Positions 9,084 to 52,349 of a stretch of DNA of 57,959 nt are shown piece after piece; the first letter of the stretch is position 1; each line of letters starts with the position of its first letter. The notes beneath the pieces are model-generated. The model was not told the origin of the DNA, ran no database searches, and saw nothing but the letters and a program-made list of their open reading frames with translations. The stretch spans positions 1 to 57,959 of the forward strand of contig JACPSE010000137.1 in the NCBI GenBank assembly GCA_016193465.1. Direction: 5' to 3'. The stretch comes from Deltaproteobacteria bacterium. GTDB taxonomy: Bacteria; Desulfobacterota; Binatia; UBA9968. A program made the translations under genes and the position numbers.

Positions 9084-10490
9084 TTAAGAGTTCTGCCCGC
9101 GAACCACTAGCAATTTTACCAACTTACCGATATCATCGAGCTTCTCTAAATTGTAGATAGTAGTAACGACTTCACTCATCTGTTTCTCGCCCATGAACTT
9201 CCCCGTTAGACTGCGGAATTTCTCCTCGACGTCGGCGTCGGTCATAGGATTCATCGGATGCCCCTTAGGTCGGAGAACCTCACAGCGATATTTCTCCCCT
9301 TTCTTGGTGGTGATTTCTACAATACCTGGTGAGCTGAATTCATCTAGCTTAGGGTCTGGCTCTACGAAAATCTTGTCTACCAGCTCCCGCACCCTGGGAT
9401 CTTGTAGCTTCTCGTCCGAGTACTGATCAGGTCCTACTGCCCGGTCCAGAATAGCAACCGCCGTGGTGTAGTAAGAACTCTGGTCCGCCGTATACTTGGT
9501 TTTGGGATATCGGCGTCTTGCAGTATCGGCCTGGCGCCGGTAGGTATGCGCAGTTGTCTTAATCTTTACCTCCGCTACATCTTCAGCTCTTATGTCATGC
9601 TCTTTAACCAGAGTTAAAGTCGCGTCTAGAAAGCCATGCAGAAGTCCCTCAGCAGCAAAACTCTTGATCCAGGTATACAGGATTGTCCAGTCTTTTCTCG
9701 GATGCCTCAACTTCTCCAAATCCATCTCTCCCCCCGTCACGACTTCAGCAAGGCCGTGATGCCCCTCAAACACATTAAGCGGACCTTTGAAACCTTTCTG
9801 CGCCAATAAGGCGCCAAGGATACCGTTATAAGCACCGTAAGGAAACCTCAGATTCCTGGCCATAGTGATTTCCTCATGAGGCGAAACCAAGATGCCCAGC
9901 TCCTGAGTGAAACACCCTGCGATAGCCAGAGCGTTTGCCATCTGCTCCTCGTTGAGTCCAAGAAGCCTACCCGCCACTAATGCCATGACGCAGGGGGTTC
10001 TAATAGCCTCGGAGGCCCATCCTAGTCTAGGTAGGACCCCGCGGTCTCCTCCTGCAGAATCAGAGACTTTATTCAGGAGTTCGTAGGCCAGAACGACCAC
10101 TGTTATGACCTCTTGACCCGTAGAGTGCTGCCGCTCACCCACAGCCAAGATGGGGGGGATCGACTCGCTGTTGTGCCCCATGCTGATACGTGCCTCCTTT
10201 GTAAGGAAGCATCTATCCATATAGTCAAGGTAGCGAACCATAACGCCATTGGCCAAAGTGGCGTACAGGCACGAGGTCTTGAGACCGCTGCCGAAAACCG
10301 TTGATTCGGCCGGCCCTTTCATCTCCTTAATCAGGCTCTGAATGATCTGGCCGGGCTCACTCGGGTAGCCGCCAAAGCCGACACCAAGGGTATCTAGCAC
10401 CTGACGCTTCACTTGATGAACCACCTCCGGTGGTAGCTCGCGAAACGTTAACCCCTTAGCCTCACGTGCTAGTTGCTCGGCAATTGTCAT
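9084..10490 (-). CDS. MmgE/PrpD family protein, intact copy
   Basis: This 468-aa protein has the normal length for the family that includes 2-methylcitrate dehydratase PrpD, cis-aconitate decarboxylase and iminodisuccinate epimerase. Recognisable segments are VLDTLGVGFGGYPSEPGQII, YLDYMDR, GERQHSTGQEVI, the helical LLGLNEEQMANALAIAGCF stretch of the first domain, and RFPYGAYNGILGALLAQKGF leading into the lid domain. The start at ATG 10490 follows GAGGACTC. It is the reference for the truncated copy at 1-1024 and the amber-broken copy at 2228-3643. Flanking SBPs suggest it acts on an imported carboxylic acid (inference). The exact reaction cannot be assigned. Confidence 0.93.
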   Translation of the reverse strand: MTIAEQLAREAKGLTFRELPPEVVHQVKRQVLDTLGVGFGGYPSEPGQIIQSLIKEMKGPAESTVFGSGLKTSCLYATLANGVMVRYLDYMDRCFLTKEARISMGHNSESIPPILAVGERQHSTGQEVITVVVLAYELLNKVSDSAGGDRGVLPRLGWASEAIRTPCVMALVAGRLLGLNEEQMANALAIAGCFTQELGILVSPHEEITMARNLRFPYGAYNGILGALLAQKGFKGPLNVFEGHHGLAEVVTGGEMDLEKLRHPRKDWTILYTWIKSFAAEGLLHGFLDATLTLVKEHDIRAEDVAEVKIKTTAHTYRRQADTARRRYPKTKYTADQSSYYTTAVAILDRAVGPDQYSDEKLQDPRVRELVDKIFVEPDPKLDEFSSPGIVEITTKKGEKYRCEVLRPKGHPMNPMTDADVEEKFRSLTGKFMGEKQMSEVVTTIYNLEKLDDIGKLVKLLVVRGQNS

Positions 10491-11729: not shown

Positions 11730-11816
11730 GGCTGACCTCCTTTTTATTTTTGTTTTGAATAAGTTCATAGGGTCATACCCGCAGATCCAAATAGGATCAC
11801 AGGTCGACCGATTTGT

Positions 11817-13001
11817 TCATTCTTCGTAAACGACTACCTCATCACCCGTAACGGTTAGTTCCGTTCCCAATTTCTTTGCCAATGGTCTCATATAACCCAC
11901 TACCTCCTCGAACCTTGGGTCTTCCTTGTTAAGTGGCTGCGGCTCTATTAGCGGGTTCACATACATCGGTAGGAATCCAACTTTGCGAATCTTTTTGTCC
12001 GTTATCACACACTTCGCGACCAAGACATAGCGCCTGTAAATCGGGCCCTGGAAGCGGTTCCACTCGGGATCATGCAGCCATTCTACGCCGTAGGGTTCCA
12101 TCCTAGCCAGATGGCGACCTGTCATAGAAAAGCCACCCTGTTGAGGGATCTTACCCAAACCAGAAGAGCCTTCCTCGGAAAAGTCACCTACGCTGTAAAA
12201 AATCGTTTTGCCCTTGTAGACCTCAATACCTTTGGGAACGTGCGCGTGATGGCCGACAATCAGATCCGCACCCGCGTCTATGGCCGCGTGACCGACAACT
12301 GGCTGATACATGGCTAGCATCCCAGGAAGATAAGGAATGCCCCAGTGCTGGGATACAATGACCACATCGGCTTTACTCTTTACATCTTTGATCTCCTGCT
12401 GCATGCGCTCCATGTCTTCCTGGTCCGCAATCGTAACGACCTTTGGAGGATCACCAGGAGAAACCGTGCCCGGCATCCTACTCGCCGGCTCGTAGTAAGT
12501 GGATACATGAATAGGGTTGATGCCCGGCCTGTCGTCTAAGGCTTCGTAGCCAGGCGGCACCACACAGCAGTACGCCAAGAAGCCGATTCGTGTATCTTTT
12601 CTGTCGATGAATACCGGCTTCCTCGCCTCAGCTATGTCACGTCCGGCGCCAACCGGCGTAATCCCATTTTTCTTCAATAGGTCGATCGTGTCCACAAGCG
12701 GATCGGGGCCCCATCCCATAATCTTATTGCTAGCTAGAGACATGATTGTGAAACCAGCAAACGTGAGTGCCCTAATGTTATCGGGGTGCACTCGCGTAAC
12801 ATACTGGTTGGGGGAATGATATTGAACAGAGCCTCTCAGTGAGAAGTTTCGCTCCAACTGGCCAAATAGAATGTCGGCCTCTCTCAGCTTTGGGGCACAC
12901 GCCTTATAAAGGTCCTCAGGATTTTCCCCATGCTCGATCCGCCTCGGACCGTTATCTCCTACTAGGTGGATCACAACAGTGTTCTTTTCTCTTCCGTCCA
13001 T
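11817..13001 (-). CDS. CapA-like phosphoesterase-fold protein with altered metal motif
   Basis: This 394-aa CapA/PgsA relative starts at ATG 13001 behind AAAGGAGG. It has GDNGP near residue 15, GQLERNFSLRG with the conserved Glu, VIVSQHWGIPYLPG and GHHAHVPKG. The normally invariant NHxxDxG motif reads SNKIMGWG, so both the His and the Asp are replaced. The siblings at 13156-14286 (SNHVMDWG) and 4154-5152 (NNHHLDRG) keep them. The fold is therefore clear but phosphoesterase-type metal chemistry is questionable. No leader peptide is visible. It follows the other CapA-like gene and precedes an SBP. The family's capsule role need not apply here. Confidence 0.88.
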   Translation of the reverse strand: MDGREKNTVVIHLVGDNGPRRIEHGENPEDLYKACAPKLREADILFGQLERNFSLRGSVQYHSPNQYVTRVHPDNIRALTFAGFTIMSLASNKIMGWGPDPLVDTIDLLKKNGITPVGAGRDIAEARKPVFIDRKDTRIGFLAYCCVVPPGYEALDDRPGINPIHVSTYYEPASRMPGTVSPGDPPKVVTIADQEDMERMQQEIKDVKSKADVVIVSQHWGIPYLPGMLAMYQPVVGHAAIDAGADLIVGHHAHVPKGIEVYKGKTIFYSVGDFSEEGSSGLGKIPQQGGFSMTGRHLARMEPYGVEWLHDPEWNRFQGPIYRRYVLVAKCVITDKKIRKVGFLPMYVNPLIEPQPLNKEDPRFEEVVGYMRPLAKKLGTELTVTGDEVVVYEE

Positions 13002-13155
13002 ACTATACCTCCTTTACCATGCAGTTATTTCGGCTCACCAAAGTAACCGTGAAAGCCAGCCTGTTCGTTTTATTTAGGCATGACCTATCCACCTATTTTT
13101 GAGGCGTCATAGGTAAGCATCCTTGAGAACATGGCAATTAGCCGGAACATGGAGG

Positions 13156-43334: not shown

Positions 43335-44468
43335 ATGAAGGTCAATCTTTTTAGGAAGCTCTTTTTTTCTCTTTTCCTCATTTTCTGCGCTGGCGGCTCG
43401 ATCCTTTTGGCTGCCTCAGCTGGTCCTGATTTGCACAAGGCAAAAAAGGAATCCGAGGCTAAAGGTTTTATCTTTGAGGCTAACCACGATGACATAGTGG
43501 CAAAGGCCAAGAATGAGGGTGCGCTACGCGTCCTCACCTCCCTCAACCCGGACACCTTTAGGGAGATGGCGAAAGCCTTCCGACAAAAGTATCCCTTTAT
43601 TGATATCTACGTGGAAGAGATTACCGGAACCGAGGCCGCCCAACGTTTCATGCTGGAGCTGAATGCCGGCACCGTGAAGGATTGGGATAGCTTTCACCTG
43701 TTTGCAGATTTCTATGACCAGTATGCTGCTCACGCTAAGAAATTTGACATCCTGGGCATGGCCAGGCTCGGAGTGTTATCCATTCCAACCGGGATGATCG
43801 ATCCCAACAACCGTAATATTGTGGCTGAATCAAGCGGTATTAGCGTTATCGCCTATAATAAGAAGCTTGTGTCACAGGAGAGGGTGCCAAATCAATGGGA
43901 GGATTTCTTGAAGCCGGGGCTCAAGGGGAAAAAATTTCTGGTGGACATTCGCCCTGCAGGCATGGCTGGATTGATGGTCGCGTTGGGCGAAGAGTGGGTT
44001 ATAAATTACGCCCGCAGGCTTAAGGAGCAGGACCCTATCTGGGTACGCGGCCACACTCGAGCGCTTGCCGGCATAGTTTCGGGAGAGTACGACCTATTCC
44101 AGCTCACCAACTACAATTCTTGCACGCGGGCTTTTCGAAAGGACCTCTCCAAGTCGCTGGTATGCAAGGTTATAGAGCCGGTTTCGGTAAGGCTCCTGGA
44201 GCCGGAAGCGGCATTGAACACCGCTCGCCATCCTTACGCCGCTTTGCTCTGGCTGGAGTTCCAGGCCAGCCCAGGAGGGCAGAGGATTATCGACGAGCAC
44301 GAACCTCTTAACTCTTCTATTTATGCTCCTGGTTCTGAGATAGAGAGAGCGACAAGTGGAAAGAAAGTGTCGATTAACAGCTGGGATACCTACAACTTAA
44401 CCTCGAGGAGGATGGGGAAAATCGTTGAGGCCTTCGGATTTCCTAAAGTGGAAGAGCGGAGAAAATAG
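43335..44468 (+). CDS. extracellular solute-binding protein, left-array subfamily
   Basis: The 377-aa SBP has a signal peptide (residues 1-27, ending near LAASA) and the same mature N-terminus as the left array: LHKAKKESEAKGFIFEANHD, then KNEGALRVLTSL, KYPFIDIYVEEITGTEAAQR, WEDFLKPGLKGKKFLVDIRP and LLWLEFQASPGGQRIIDEHEPL. GGGAGGTG precedes ATG 43335. It is on the plus strand after the complete ABC operon but 317 bases apart, so it may be its own unit. It shows that this subfamily also occurs outside the left array. The ligand is unknown. Confidence 0.92.
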   Translation: MKVNLFRKLFFSLFLIFCAGGSILLAASAGPDLHKAKKESEAKGFIFEANHDDIVAKAKNEGALRVLTSLNPDTFREMAKAFRQKYPFIDIYVEEITGTEAAQRFMLELNAGTVKDWDSFHLFADFYDQYAAHAKKFDILGMARLGVLSIPTGMIDPNNRNIVAESSGISVIAYNKKLVSQERVPNQWEDFLKPGLKGKKFLVDIRPAGMAGLMVALGEEWVINYARRLKEQDPIWVRGHTRALAGIVSGEYDLFQLTNYNSCTRAFRKDLSKSLVCKVIEPVSVRLLEPEAALNTARHPYAALLWLEFQASPGGQRIIDEHEPLNSSIYAPGSEIERATSGKKVSINSWDTYNLTSRRMGKIVEAFGFPKVEERRK

Positions 44469-45280: not shown

Positions 45281-46411
45281 CTATTTTCGCTCCGTCGAAG
45301 GGAATCCGTAGGCTCTGACTATTTGTTTTTCGATCTCCCCGCGTTCAACGAAAAACCGCCAGGCAGCAACGGATACCTTCTTGCCTTCCACGTCTTTCTT
45401 TAGAATCGACCCGGGTGCAAAGATGGAACTTTTGTAAGGTTCCACTTCATCCAAAAATTTCTGCGCCTCCGGGGTCGTCATGTGCTCAATCCAGAGCAGA
45501 GCCACGTGAGGGTTCTTTGCGCCAGCAAGTATGCCGGTTGCTTCATGGAGTCTCGCCGGAACCGGCTCGGCAAGGACCGGTTCAACGTCAGCCTTGGGGT
45601 TTTTCATCTTTAACCGCATCACCGAATTGTAGTTCGTACCTCCGTGCAGCGCGTACTCCCCGGCAGCAAGACTCGCAAGCATTCTAGAATGGCCGCGGCC
45701 CCAAATAGGTTCCTGTTCTCTTACTTTGCGTGCAAAGTCCAGAACCTTCTCCAACCCCCACGCCGGAGTCAAGGCCGCGACGGCCGCAGGATCTATGTCC
45801 ATGACGAATTTTTTCCCTTTGAGTTCGGGCCTGAGCAGATTCTCCCAAGTTCTGGGGATCAAGTCACGGCGGAGCAGGCGCGGATTGTAAGCAATGACGT
45901 CGAGGGCGCTCCCCGCGGCAACGATGTCGCGGTTATCCGGGTCAATCATCTGGCTCGGAATCTGTAGTACTCCCTCGGCTGCCATACCCGCAATGTCGAA
46001 CTTAGCCAAGTGGGATAGATAGTTGTTGTAGAAGGGCCCCGACAGATAGATAGCGTCCCATTTCTCACCGGCTATGCCGGCTTGAAGCTCCTGAACGAAA
46101 CGTTGTGAGGCGTCGCTACCGGTGATCTCTTCCGCGCGTTGTATGGTTATAAATGGATACTTTTTAACGAACGTTTCGGCAAAACCTTTATAAGTAGCGG
46201 GATACACACCATAGAGGACCCTTAGTTGTCCCTCTTTCTTTGCCCTGGCGATTATTTCGTCGCGGCTTGTAAGAAACCTGTATCCCTTAGCTTCTGCAGA
46301 CTGTTTGGCTTTGAGCAGCCCGGGACCGGGCTGGGCAGCTGCCCCAGGCAAAACGGTGACCCATAACCAGATAGCAGGCACAATGACAATTCTTAGGAAA
46401 CCATAGAGCAT
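45281..46411 (-). CDS. extracellular solute-binding protein, left-array subfamily
   Basis: The 376-aa SBP starts at ATG 46411 with AAAGGAGGTG upstream. The signal peptide ends AAA-QP. The mature N-terminus (LLKAKQSAEAKGYRFLTSRD, then IIARAKKEGQLRVLYG) and the later KYPFITIQRAEEITGSDASQ, WENLLRPELKGKKFVMDIDP, RARGHSRML-type region and LLWIEHMTTPEAQKFLDEVEPY place it in the same subfamily as the left array and 43335-44468. It is followed after 35 bases, in operon orientation, from the isochorismatase-fold gene at 46447-47049 upstream. The ligand is unknown. Confidence 0.92.
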   Translation of the reverse strand: MLYGFLRIVIVPAIWLWVTVLPGAAAQPGPGLLKAKQSAEAKGYRFLTSRDEIIARAKKEGQLRVLYGVYPATYKGFAETFVKKYPFITIQRAEEITGSDASQRFVQELQAGIAGEKWDAIYLSGPFYNNYLSHLAKFDIAGMAAEGVLQIPSQMIDPDNRDIVAAGSALDVIAYNPRLLRRDLIPRTWENLLRPELKGKKFVMDIDPAAVAALTPAWGLEKVLDFARKVREQEPIWGRGHSRMLASLAAGEYALHGGTNYNSVMRLKMKNPKADVEPVLAEPVPARLHEATGILAGAKNPHVALLWIEHMTTPEAQKFLDEVEPYKSSIFAPGSILKKDVEGKKVSVAAWRFFVERGEIEKQIVRAYGFPSTERK

Positions 46412-51860: not shown

Positions 51861-51890
51861 TAAAAAAAGCGCCCGAGGAGGTTTTCAGCT

Positions 51891-52349
51891 ATGGCAATAC
51901 CTAATGTTGGGGAGAAGGCCCCGGATTTCAGCCTGCCGGTCTCCAGAGATCAAAAGGTGGGGCTGAAGGATTTTCTCGGAAAGAAGCATGTGGTGCTGGC
52001 TTTCTATCCGTTGGATTTCACCGGTGGCTGACAGCAGGAGCTAAAGAACCTCGAAGCGGATCGAAAGAGCTTTGAGGCCAAAGACGCTCAGGTTCTGAGC
52101 GTGAGCGTTGATTCCGTATTTGCCCACAAGGCCTTTGCGGAAAAGATGGGGGGCATTGGCTATCCCATGCTTTCGGATTTTTACCCTCATGGCGCCGCTT
52201 GCGCGCTGTATGATTGTCTGAGACCCGAGGGTTATCCCAAGCGGGCGGTATTCATCATCGATAAGCAGGGGATTGTGCGTTTCCGCAAGGAGTACGAAAA
52301 AGGAATTCCAGAAAACAAGGAGCTATTGGCCGAGCTCGATAAGGTATAA
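51891..52349 (+). CDS. selenocysteine-containing peroxiredoxin, AhpE-like
   Basis: The frame from ATG 51891 (GAGGAGG upstream) to TAA 52349 gives 152 aa with one in-frame TGA at codon 47 (52029-52031). The reading is ...[11 protein letters not shown]-[TGA][10 protein letters not shown]..., so TGA falls exactly at the peroxidatic position of the PxxxTxxC peroxiredoxin motif (P40, T44, residue 47). Length and the position of residue 47 match 1-Cys AhpE (153 aa). The frame is open and conserved after TGA, up to [20 protein letters not shown]. This is best read as selenocysteine, helped by the hairpin at 52041-52076. It reduces peroxides using thiols in the cytoplasm. A plain gene caller would report only a C-terminal piece from 52101. 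Confidence 0.85.
52041..52076 (+). promoter_or_regulatory. candidate bacterial SECIS hairpin
   Basis: Starting 10 bases after the TGA, CTAAAG (52041-52046) pairs with CTTTGAG (52070-52076, one bulged G at 52074), enclosing an inner TCGA/TCGA stem (52051-52054 with 52061-52064) capped by the loop AGCGGA. The apical loop begins 24 bases after the TGA, within the distance range needed for SelB recruitment in bacterial selenoprotein mRNAs. Folding was done by eye. Confidence 0.6.

Follow-up and report, generated by a model that had tools for sequence, protein, structure and literature searches.

A predicted selenocysteine codon at the peroxidatic site of an AhpE-like peroxiredoxin from Candidatus Binatia

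The peroxiredoxin gene and its in-frame TGA codon

The window, i.e., the whole stretch of 57,959 nucleotides analysed here (contig JACPSE010000137.1 of assembly GCA_016193465.1), contains a peroxiredoxin gene interrupted by one TGA codon. The gene and its features are as follows:

51875..51881, forward strand: Shine-Dalgarno-like GAGGAGG, 9 nt before the ATG, as read from the sequence
51891..52349, forward strand: AhpE-like peroxiredoxin gene, 152 codons plus TAA, with a single in-frame TGA
52029..52031, forward strand: TGA codon 47, located at the peroxidatic position of PxxxTxxU and predicted to encode selenocysteine, based on orthologues and the alignment with AhpE
52049..52077, forward strand: candidate bacterial SECIS hairpin, stem 52049-52057 / 52069-52077, 11-nt loop 52058-52068
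52200..52217, forward strand: codons 104-109 with Cys104 and Cys109, possible resolving cysteines of the clade

The reading frame starts with ATG at 51891 and ends with TAA at 52347-52349, and the TGA is its one internal stop. The read-through protein has a complete AhpC/TSA domain (Pfam PF00578, residues 6-131 of 152, E 1.8e-35), scoring 122 bits vs. a cut-off of 26. Its predicted structure has a mean pLDDT of 94.5, and the six top PDB matches of the model are all Mycobacterium tuberculosis AhpE (TM-score about 0.92, 36-37% identity). In the alignment, residue 47 falls on the peroxidatic Cys of AhpE, and P40, T44, and R118 likewise align with their AhpE counterparts; with codon 47 written as U, the active-site stretch reads PLDFTGGU. 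The original prediction, made from the sequence alone, had described an otherwise intact AhpE-like peroxiredoxin of 152 aa with its only in-frame TGA at the catalytic position, and both statements are borne out by the full domain, the best PDB match, and the position of residue 47. Ordinary annotation would probably end the gene product at residue 46.

GGAG precedes the ATG in the 24 orthologues described below (by eye), and the gene order NUDIX-Prx-GcvT-LysR is shared by 14 of 17 named Binatia loci, with the remaining three interrupted by contig ends. A plasmid search for the gene returned only homologues of less than 60% identity, and, on reading through a list of further read-through candidates in the window, none was convincing. 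As a separate observation, the window encodes at least three alike substrate-binding-like proteins (11800-13013 on the reverse strand, 43335-44468 on the forward strand, and 45281-46411 on the reverse strand, by eye) with a common KAKxxxEAKGY...HDxI stretch, which points to a local family expansion.

Judging from the named records with the closest relatives, the host belongs to Candidatus Binatia; the closest records bear the titles Deltaproteobacteria or Candidatus Binatia and are metagenome bins, many of them from groundwater and soil. In a set of 145 genomes, including the window's own, 24 genes at 70% identity or more span codon 47, and all 24, the window's gene included, have TGA there. 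They represent two Binatia families and assemblies of 24 species; a 25th gene (L043, genome G013) is a fragment starting after codon 47 and was dropped. Among the named loci (n = 57), whose Binatia members largely overlap the 24, TGA is likewise present in 16/16 Binatia loci spanning the codon. The original prediction had proposed aligning homologues at this codon and had argued that a random nonsense mutation would be a large coincidence. The alignment is in line with this view: in contrast to the orthologues, the next-closest homologues in named genomes (45-55% identity) have Cys at position 47 in 38 of 38 cases. These comprise 33 acidobacterial proteins, 4 of Kryptonia type, and 1 titled Bacillota. 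Outside the 38 are L135 (29% identity, a thioredoxin-like motif, and Cys) and two loci not spanning codon 47 (L095 and L134).

In a tree of 89 rows, the 24 orthologues fall into a single group made up of Sec genes alone (SH-aLRT 99). The same tree implies five changes between Sec and Cys, a count obtained by a quick method with several long branches. The tree also places remoter Cys paralogues and other Sec peroxiredoxin subfamilies within the class, and 5 of its 20 additionally fetched rows have Cys. It should be noted that one row (L158) is labelled Cys by its alignment column, yet its TGA lies three residues earlier, in a UxxC motif.

Sequence evolution after the TGA also bears on how the codon is read. 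Against the congener G003, dN/dS is 0.05 after the TGA and 0.03 before it, with pS at 0.55-0.79 and dS thus near saturation. When both are compared with nine other orthologues, nonsynonymous differences downstream of the TGA are fewer for the window's copy than for the G003 copy in 9/9 comparisons, which are not independent, and there is therefore no sign of decay in the window's lineage. The codons downstream of the TGA are under strong purifying selection.

The candidate SECIS hairpin and other TGA-containing redox genes

The original prediction had also placed a SECIS-like hairpin 10-45 bases downstream of the TGA. A conserved hairpin is indeed present, although its 9-bp stem and loop occupy nucleotides 18-46 after the TGA. 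Across the 24 genes, the seven outer pairs are formed in 168/168 cells and all nine pairs in 199/216. One comparison of the orthologue rows covered 23 of the 24 genes, L035 being omitted as it is cut by a contig end and nearly identical to L031. The pair 52050/52076 covaries: among 20 distinct sequences it is C-G in 9, U-A in 6, and U-G in 5. The covariation score and the share of paired cells were reached by none of 500 shuffles; changes on both sides are confined to one pair, a number that 263 of the 500 reach. When the 3' arm is slid by +1, the covariation score is slightly higher (0.195 vs. 0.183), but only 47% of cells are paired. The hairpin arms are in part a consequence of two F/L-E dipeptides. 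Synonymous conservation, calculated over stretches of ten codons, exceeds expectation by 0.17-0.29 in stretches that begin at codons 41-66 and by at most 0.13 in those that begin before codon 36 or after codon 66, so that its peak lies over the hairpin.

Fold energy by itself proves little. The segment 52029-52080, which the original prediction had singled out for folding, gives -15.4 kcal/mol with z -2.03 against dinucleotide shuffles (4/200 as low); this low value did not extend to two further cuts taken from the window, at z -0.80 and +0.77, or to seven segments from orthologues, which range from -1.13 to +0.38. Several of these cuts clip the stem. Against synonymous shuffles, z is negative in 24/24 genes, but weakly (-0.13 to -3.16; -1.23 for the window's gene). 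The bacterial SECIS criteria given in the available part of PMC13188914 are a stem of 4-16 bp, 16-37 nt from UGA to the apical loop, and an energy of -7.5 kcal/mol or lower; the window's hairpin, with 9 bp, 26 nt, and -15.4 kcal/mol, lies within these ranges. The same part of that source gives an apical loop of 3-9 nt, whereas the loop has 11 nt in the window's fold and 4-15 nt in those of the orthologues. One of the first two positions of the loop is a G in the window and in 14/24 genes in their own minimum-energy folds. With the 9-bp stem imposed, the same holds for 24/24, the G then being base 1 of codon 57 (Asp/Glu).

Taken together, the retention of the TGA, the selection past it, and the conserved hairpin argue that the locus is a selenoprotein gene, as predicted, rather than the product of a mutation. 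The original interpretation of selenocysteine at the peroxidatic site is thus supported. The same genome (G000) contains two further redox genes with an in-frame TGA:

G000:C93:1110-1547, reverse strand: second TGA peroxiredoxin (L157), motif DFTPGU, signal-peptide-like start
G000:C192:1510-1974, reverse strand: AhpC/TSA-type protein (L158), TGA in the UxxC motif HWUPYC, signal-peptide-like

The first groups in the tree with TGA genes of three other genomes (G010, G012, and G021). For the second, several relatives have candidate matches with one TGA and similar scores. In addition, SelD has an in-frame TGA at its active site in all six Binatia loci checked (L073, at 9333-9335, L074, L075, L159, L161, and L163), where KAAG or KAGG is followed by U and then AAK. 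The SelD of these loci is therefore predicted to be a selenoprotein itself.

Cys104 is present in 21 and Cys109 in 23 of the 24 orthologues, each of which has at least one of the two. Neither is found in the 38 Cys-type homologues where these align, and among the other Sec-type rows Cys104 occurs in L171 only. Either residue might possibly resolve the oxidised selenocysteine.

From the features computed so far, i.e., the gene, its conserved TGA and hairpin, the selection past the TGA, and the predicted fold, we infer that the gene product is almost certainly a peroxide-destroying enzyme with a catalytic selenocysteine encoded by UGA. SelB would bind the hairpin that closely follows the UGA and bring Sec-tRNA(Sec) to codon 47. 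In the finished protein, Pro40, Thr44, and Arg118 would activate the selenol of Sec47, which would reduce peroxide to water or the corresponding alcohol; the resulting selenenic acid would be reduced in turn by a thiol, possibly that of Cys104 or Cys109.

Selenocysteine machinery and the break at contig C45

The window's own assembly comprises 4.5 Mb in 238 contigs and is rated 100% complete. Within it, no SelA, SelB, SelD, or tRNA-Sec was found over cut-off (PF03841, TIGR00475, TIGR00476, and RF01852, respectively; for RF01852, 150 of 473 first-look candidates were scored). Among proteins, a SufS-like cysteine desulfurase, EF-Tu, and ThiL match these models best. The tRNA candidates read were Ser, Leu, Cys, Gly, and similar, and no UCA tRNA was present among eight loci scanned in this genome. 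Selenouridine synthase, tried as an independent sign of SelD, was uninformative, with no match over cut-off in 8/8 genomes. The original prediction had called for a search for the sel genes and had named their absence from the genome as evidence against itself. Read literally, the assembly does show this absence, for which an assembly break is the best explanation. The part of the search that concerns relatives turned out in favour of the prediction, since 24 of the 25 genomes with the peroxiredoxin gene have SelB and/or tRNA-Sec, the window's own being the exception.

Over the whole set, SelB is over cut-off in 117/145 genomes and tRNA-Sec in 111/145, in 107 of them at 65 bits or more. The remaining four (G035, G041, G055, and G065) have weak matches of 48-52 bits only; these are doubtful, since the search also matched Caulobacter, Thermus, and Thermotoga, all without a SelB match. 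In the families holding the peroxiredoxin gene, tRNA-Sec matches reach 73-79 bits. Incomplete assemblies often lose these loci: among 25 genomes of the family to which the window's genome belongs, 8 have only one of SelB and tRNA-Sec and 3 (G000, G008, and G023) have neither. In the congener G003, selA-selB-selD-selC form one 4.8-kb cluster (C185:5764-10528) with a UCA tRNA-Sec, and selB, selD, and selC in G001 and selA, selB, and selD in G002 are adjacent up to the contig ends. Because the sel genes are adjacent in all three genomes, one gap could remove all four.

The likely site of such a gap is contig C45 of the window's genome. Cytochrome c-like genes (CxxCH motifs, by eye) adjoin selC in G001, and base 1 of C45 aligns with L074:3106 at 84% identity over about 2.1 kb. 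C45 thus starts within the last of these cytochrome-like genes, about 240 bp before selC is reached at position 3349 of L074. The machinery would be absent from the assembly because C45 breaks off where the sel cluster should begin. From this synteny, the organism's selABCD most likely lie in an unassembled stretch off C45; the case is a strong one, though short of final. The genes flanking the sel cluster are not the same in G003 as in G001, so that gene order around it varies within the genus. A search of the window's genome with the upstream edge of selA in G002 did not locate the far side of the presumed gap, giving short matches at scattered places and one of 181 bp within contig C49. A precedent for a tRNA-Sec absent from an assembly but present in the raw reads is described, for a eukaryote, in the available part of PMC5330540. 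The case also illustrates that a rating of 100% completeness can hide the lack of a 5-kb locus on which the interpretation of a genome depends.

The 12.7-kb sel contig of G003 was also compared with the window's genome (40 of 125 first-look candidates scored). Its sole strong match is to a toxin-antitoxin-like stretch; all other matches are fragments, either short or weak. A G003 control contig (L198, one of five, with 40 of 85 candidates scored) matches colinearly over about 10.4 of 12.7 kb. The toxin-antitoxin-like pair (RelE/Phd type, by eye) lies directly beside selC in G003 (L073:10545-11159), and a copy 80% identical to it is located elsewhere in the window's genome (G000:C197:19766-20376). 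This match was considered as evidence of synteny and set aside as not informative.

It is very likely, in our view, that the gene encodes a selenocysteine AhpE-like peroxiredoxin, with Sec directed to codon 47 by SelB and the hairpin and with selABCD in the unassembled stretch. The lack of Sec machinery over cut-off in a 4.5-Mb assembly rated 100% complete, and a G003 sel contig that barely matches this genome beside a control contig that is largely colinear, could also reflect a recent loss of selABCD, after which the TGA genes would be new pseudogenes giving short stubs. Such a loss is quite improbable, given that the gene adjoining selC in G001 is truncated at a contig end of this genome, whereas, by estimate, 238 contigs give a chance of roughly 3% that an end falls 250 bp or less from any given point. 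Moreover, selection after the TGA is not relaxed, and all three TGA redox genes are still in open frames.

The retention of three TGA genes in an assembly in which no sel gene is over cut-off would equally fit UGA being read as another residue, e.g., Cys, by a suppressor tRNA or near-cognate decoding and without selenocysteine. This is highly improbable, since relatives with the same gene have a UCA tRNA-Sec, SelB, and a TGA-bearing SelD, the conserved hairpin would be needless, and the eight loci scanned contained no UCA tRNA. We assign the same very slim chance to a species that has lost selABCD yet translates its three conserved redox TGA codons by another route; if this were true, it would be a living intermediate between selenocysteine coding and UGA reassignment. 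A sequencing error or chance nonsense mutation could be invoked for a single assembly, but its probability is negligible, as it is contradicted by the TGA in the assemblies of 24 species and in every named Binatia locus spanning the codon.

Relation to known peroxiredoxins and selenoproteins

The closest solved relative is M. tuberculosis AhpE (Rv2238c; PDB 1xxu, 4x0x, 4xih, and 5id2), a 1-Cys enzyme matched at E about 1e-27. The two proteins are alike in the aligned active-site Pro, Thr, Cys, and Arg and in their fold (TM-score about 0.92). Unlike the window's protein, AhpE has Cys in place of Sec, and Ser and Val at the positions aligned with 104 and 109. The AhpE-like Cys peroxiredoxins of Acidobacteriota and Kryptonia are 45-55% identical to the window's protein over most of its length; they differ in having Cys at position 47 throughout and no Cys at 104 or 109 where aligned.

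No published account of selenoproteins in Binatia or Desulfobacterota_B was found in full-text searches of one collection of papers, although papers that say Deltaproteobacteria could cover them. Two papers, PMC9999580 and PMC11382960, combine Binatota with a seleno word, which in PMC9999580 occurs in the reference list only. The peroxiredoxin is of Sec type in every orthologue seen, in a lineage for which we found no such account.

Sec-containing peroxiredoxins of the TxxU type (PF00578) are built on the domain found in the window's protein, with Sec at its peroxidatic site. Against the NCBIfam model of PrxU (NF040737), the window's protein scores 74.1 bits vs. a cut-off of 270 and is therefore not filed as PrxU. 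Sec-containing peroxiredoxin was first reported from Eubacterium acidaminophilum, and we take NF040737 to be tied to that protein. The window's protein would accordingly represent a peroxiredoxin subfamily other than PrxU, being AhpE-like and 152 aa long. TxxU peroxiredoxins are listed as a known selenoprotein family in the available parts of both PMC13188914 and PMC2398784, the latter giving 253 marine sequences. It is therefore well supported that the window's gene adds a member to the known TxxU family of Sec peroxiredoxins and does not constitute a new kind.
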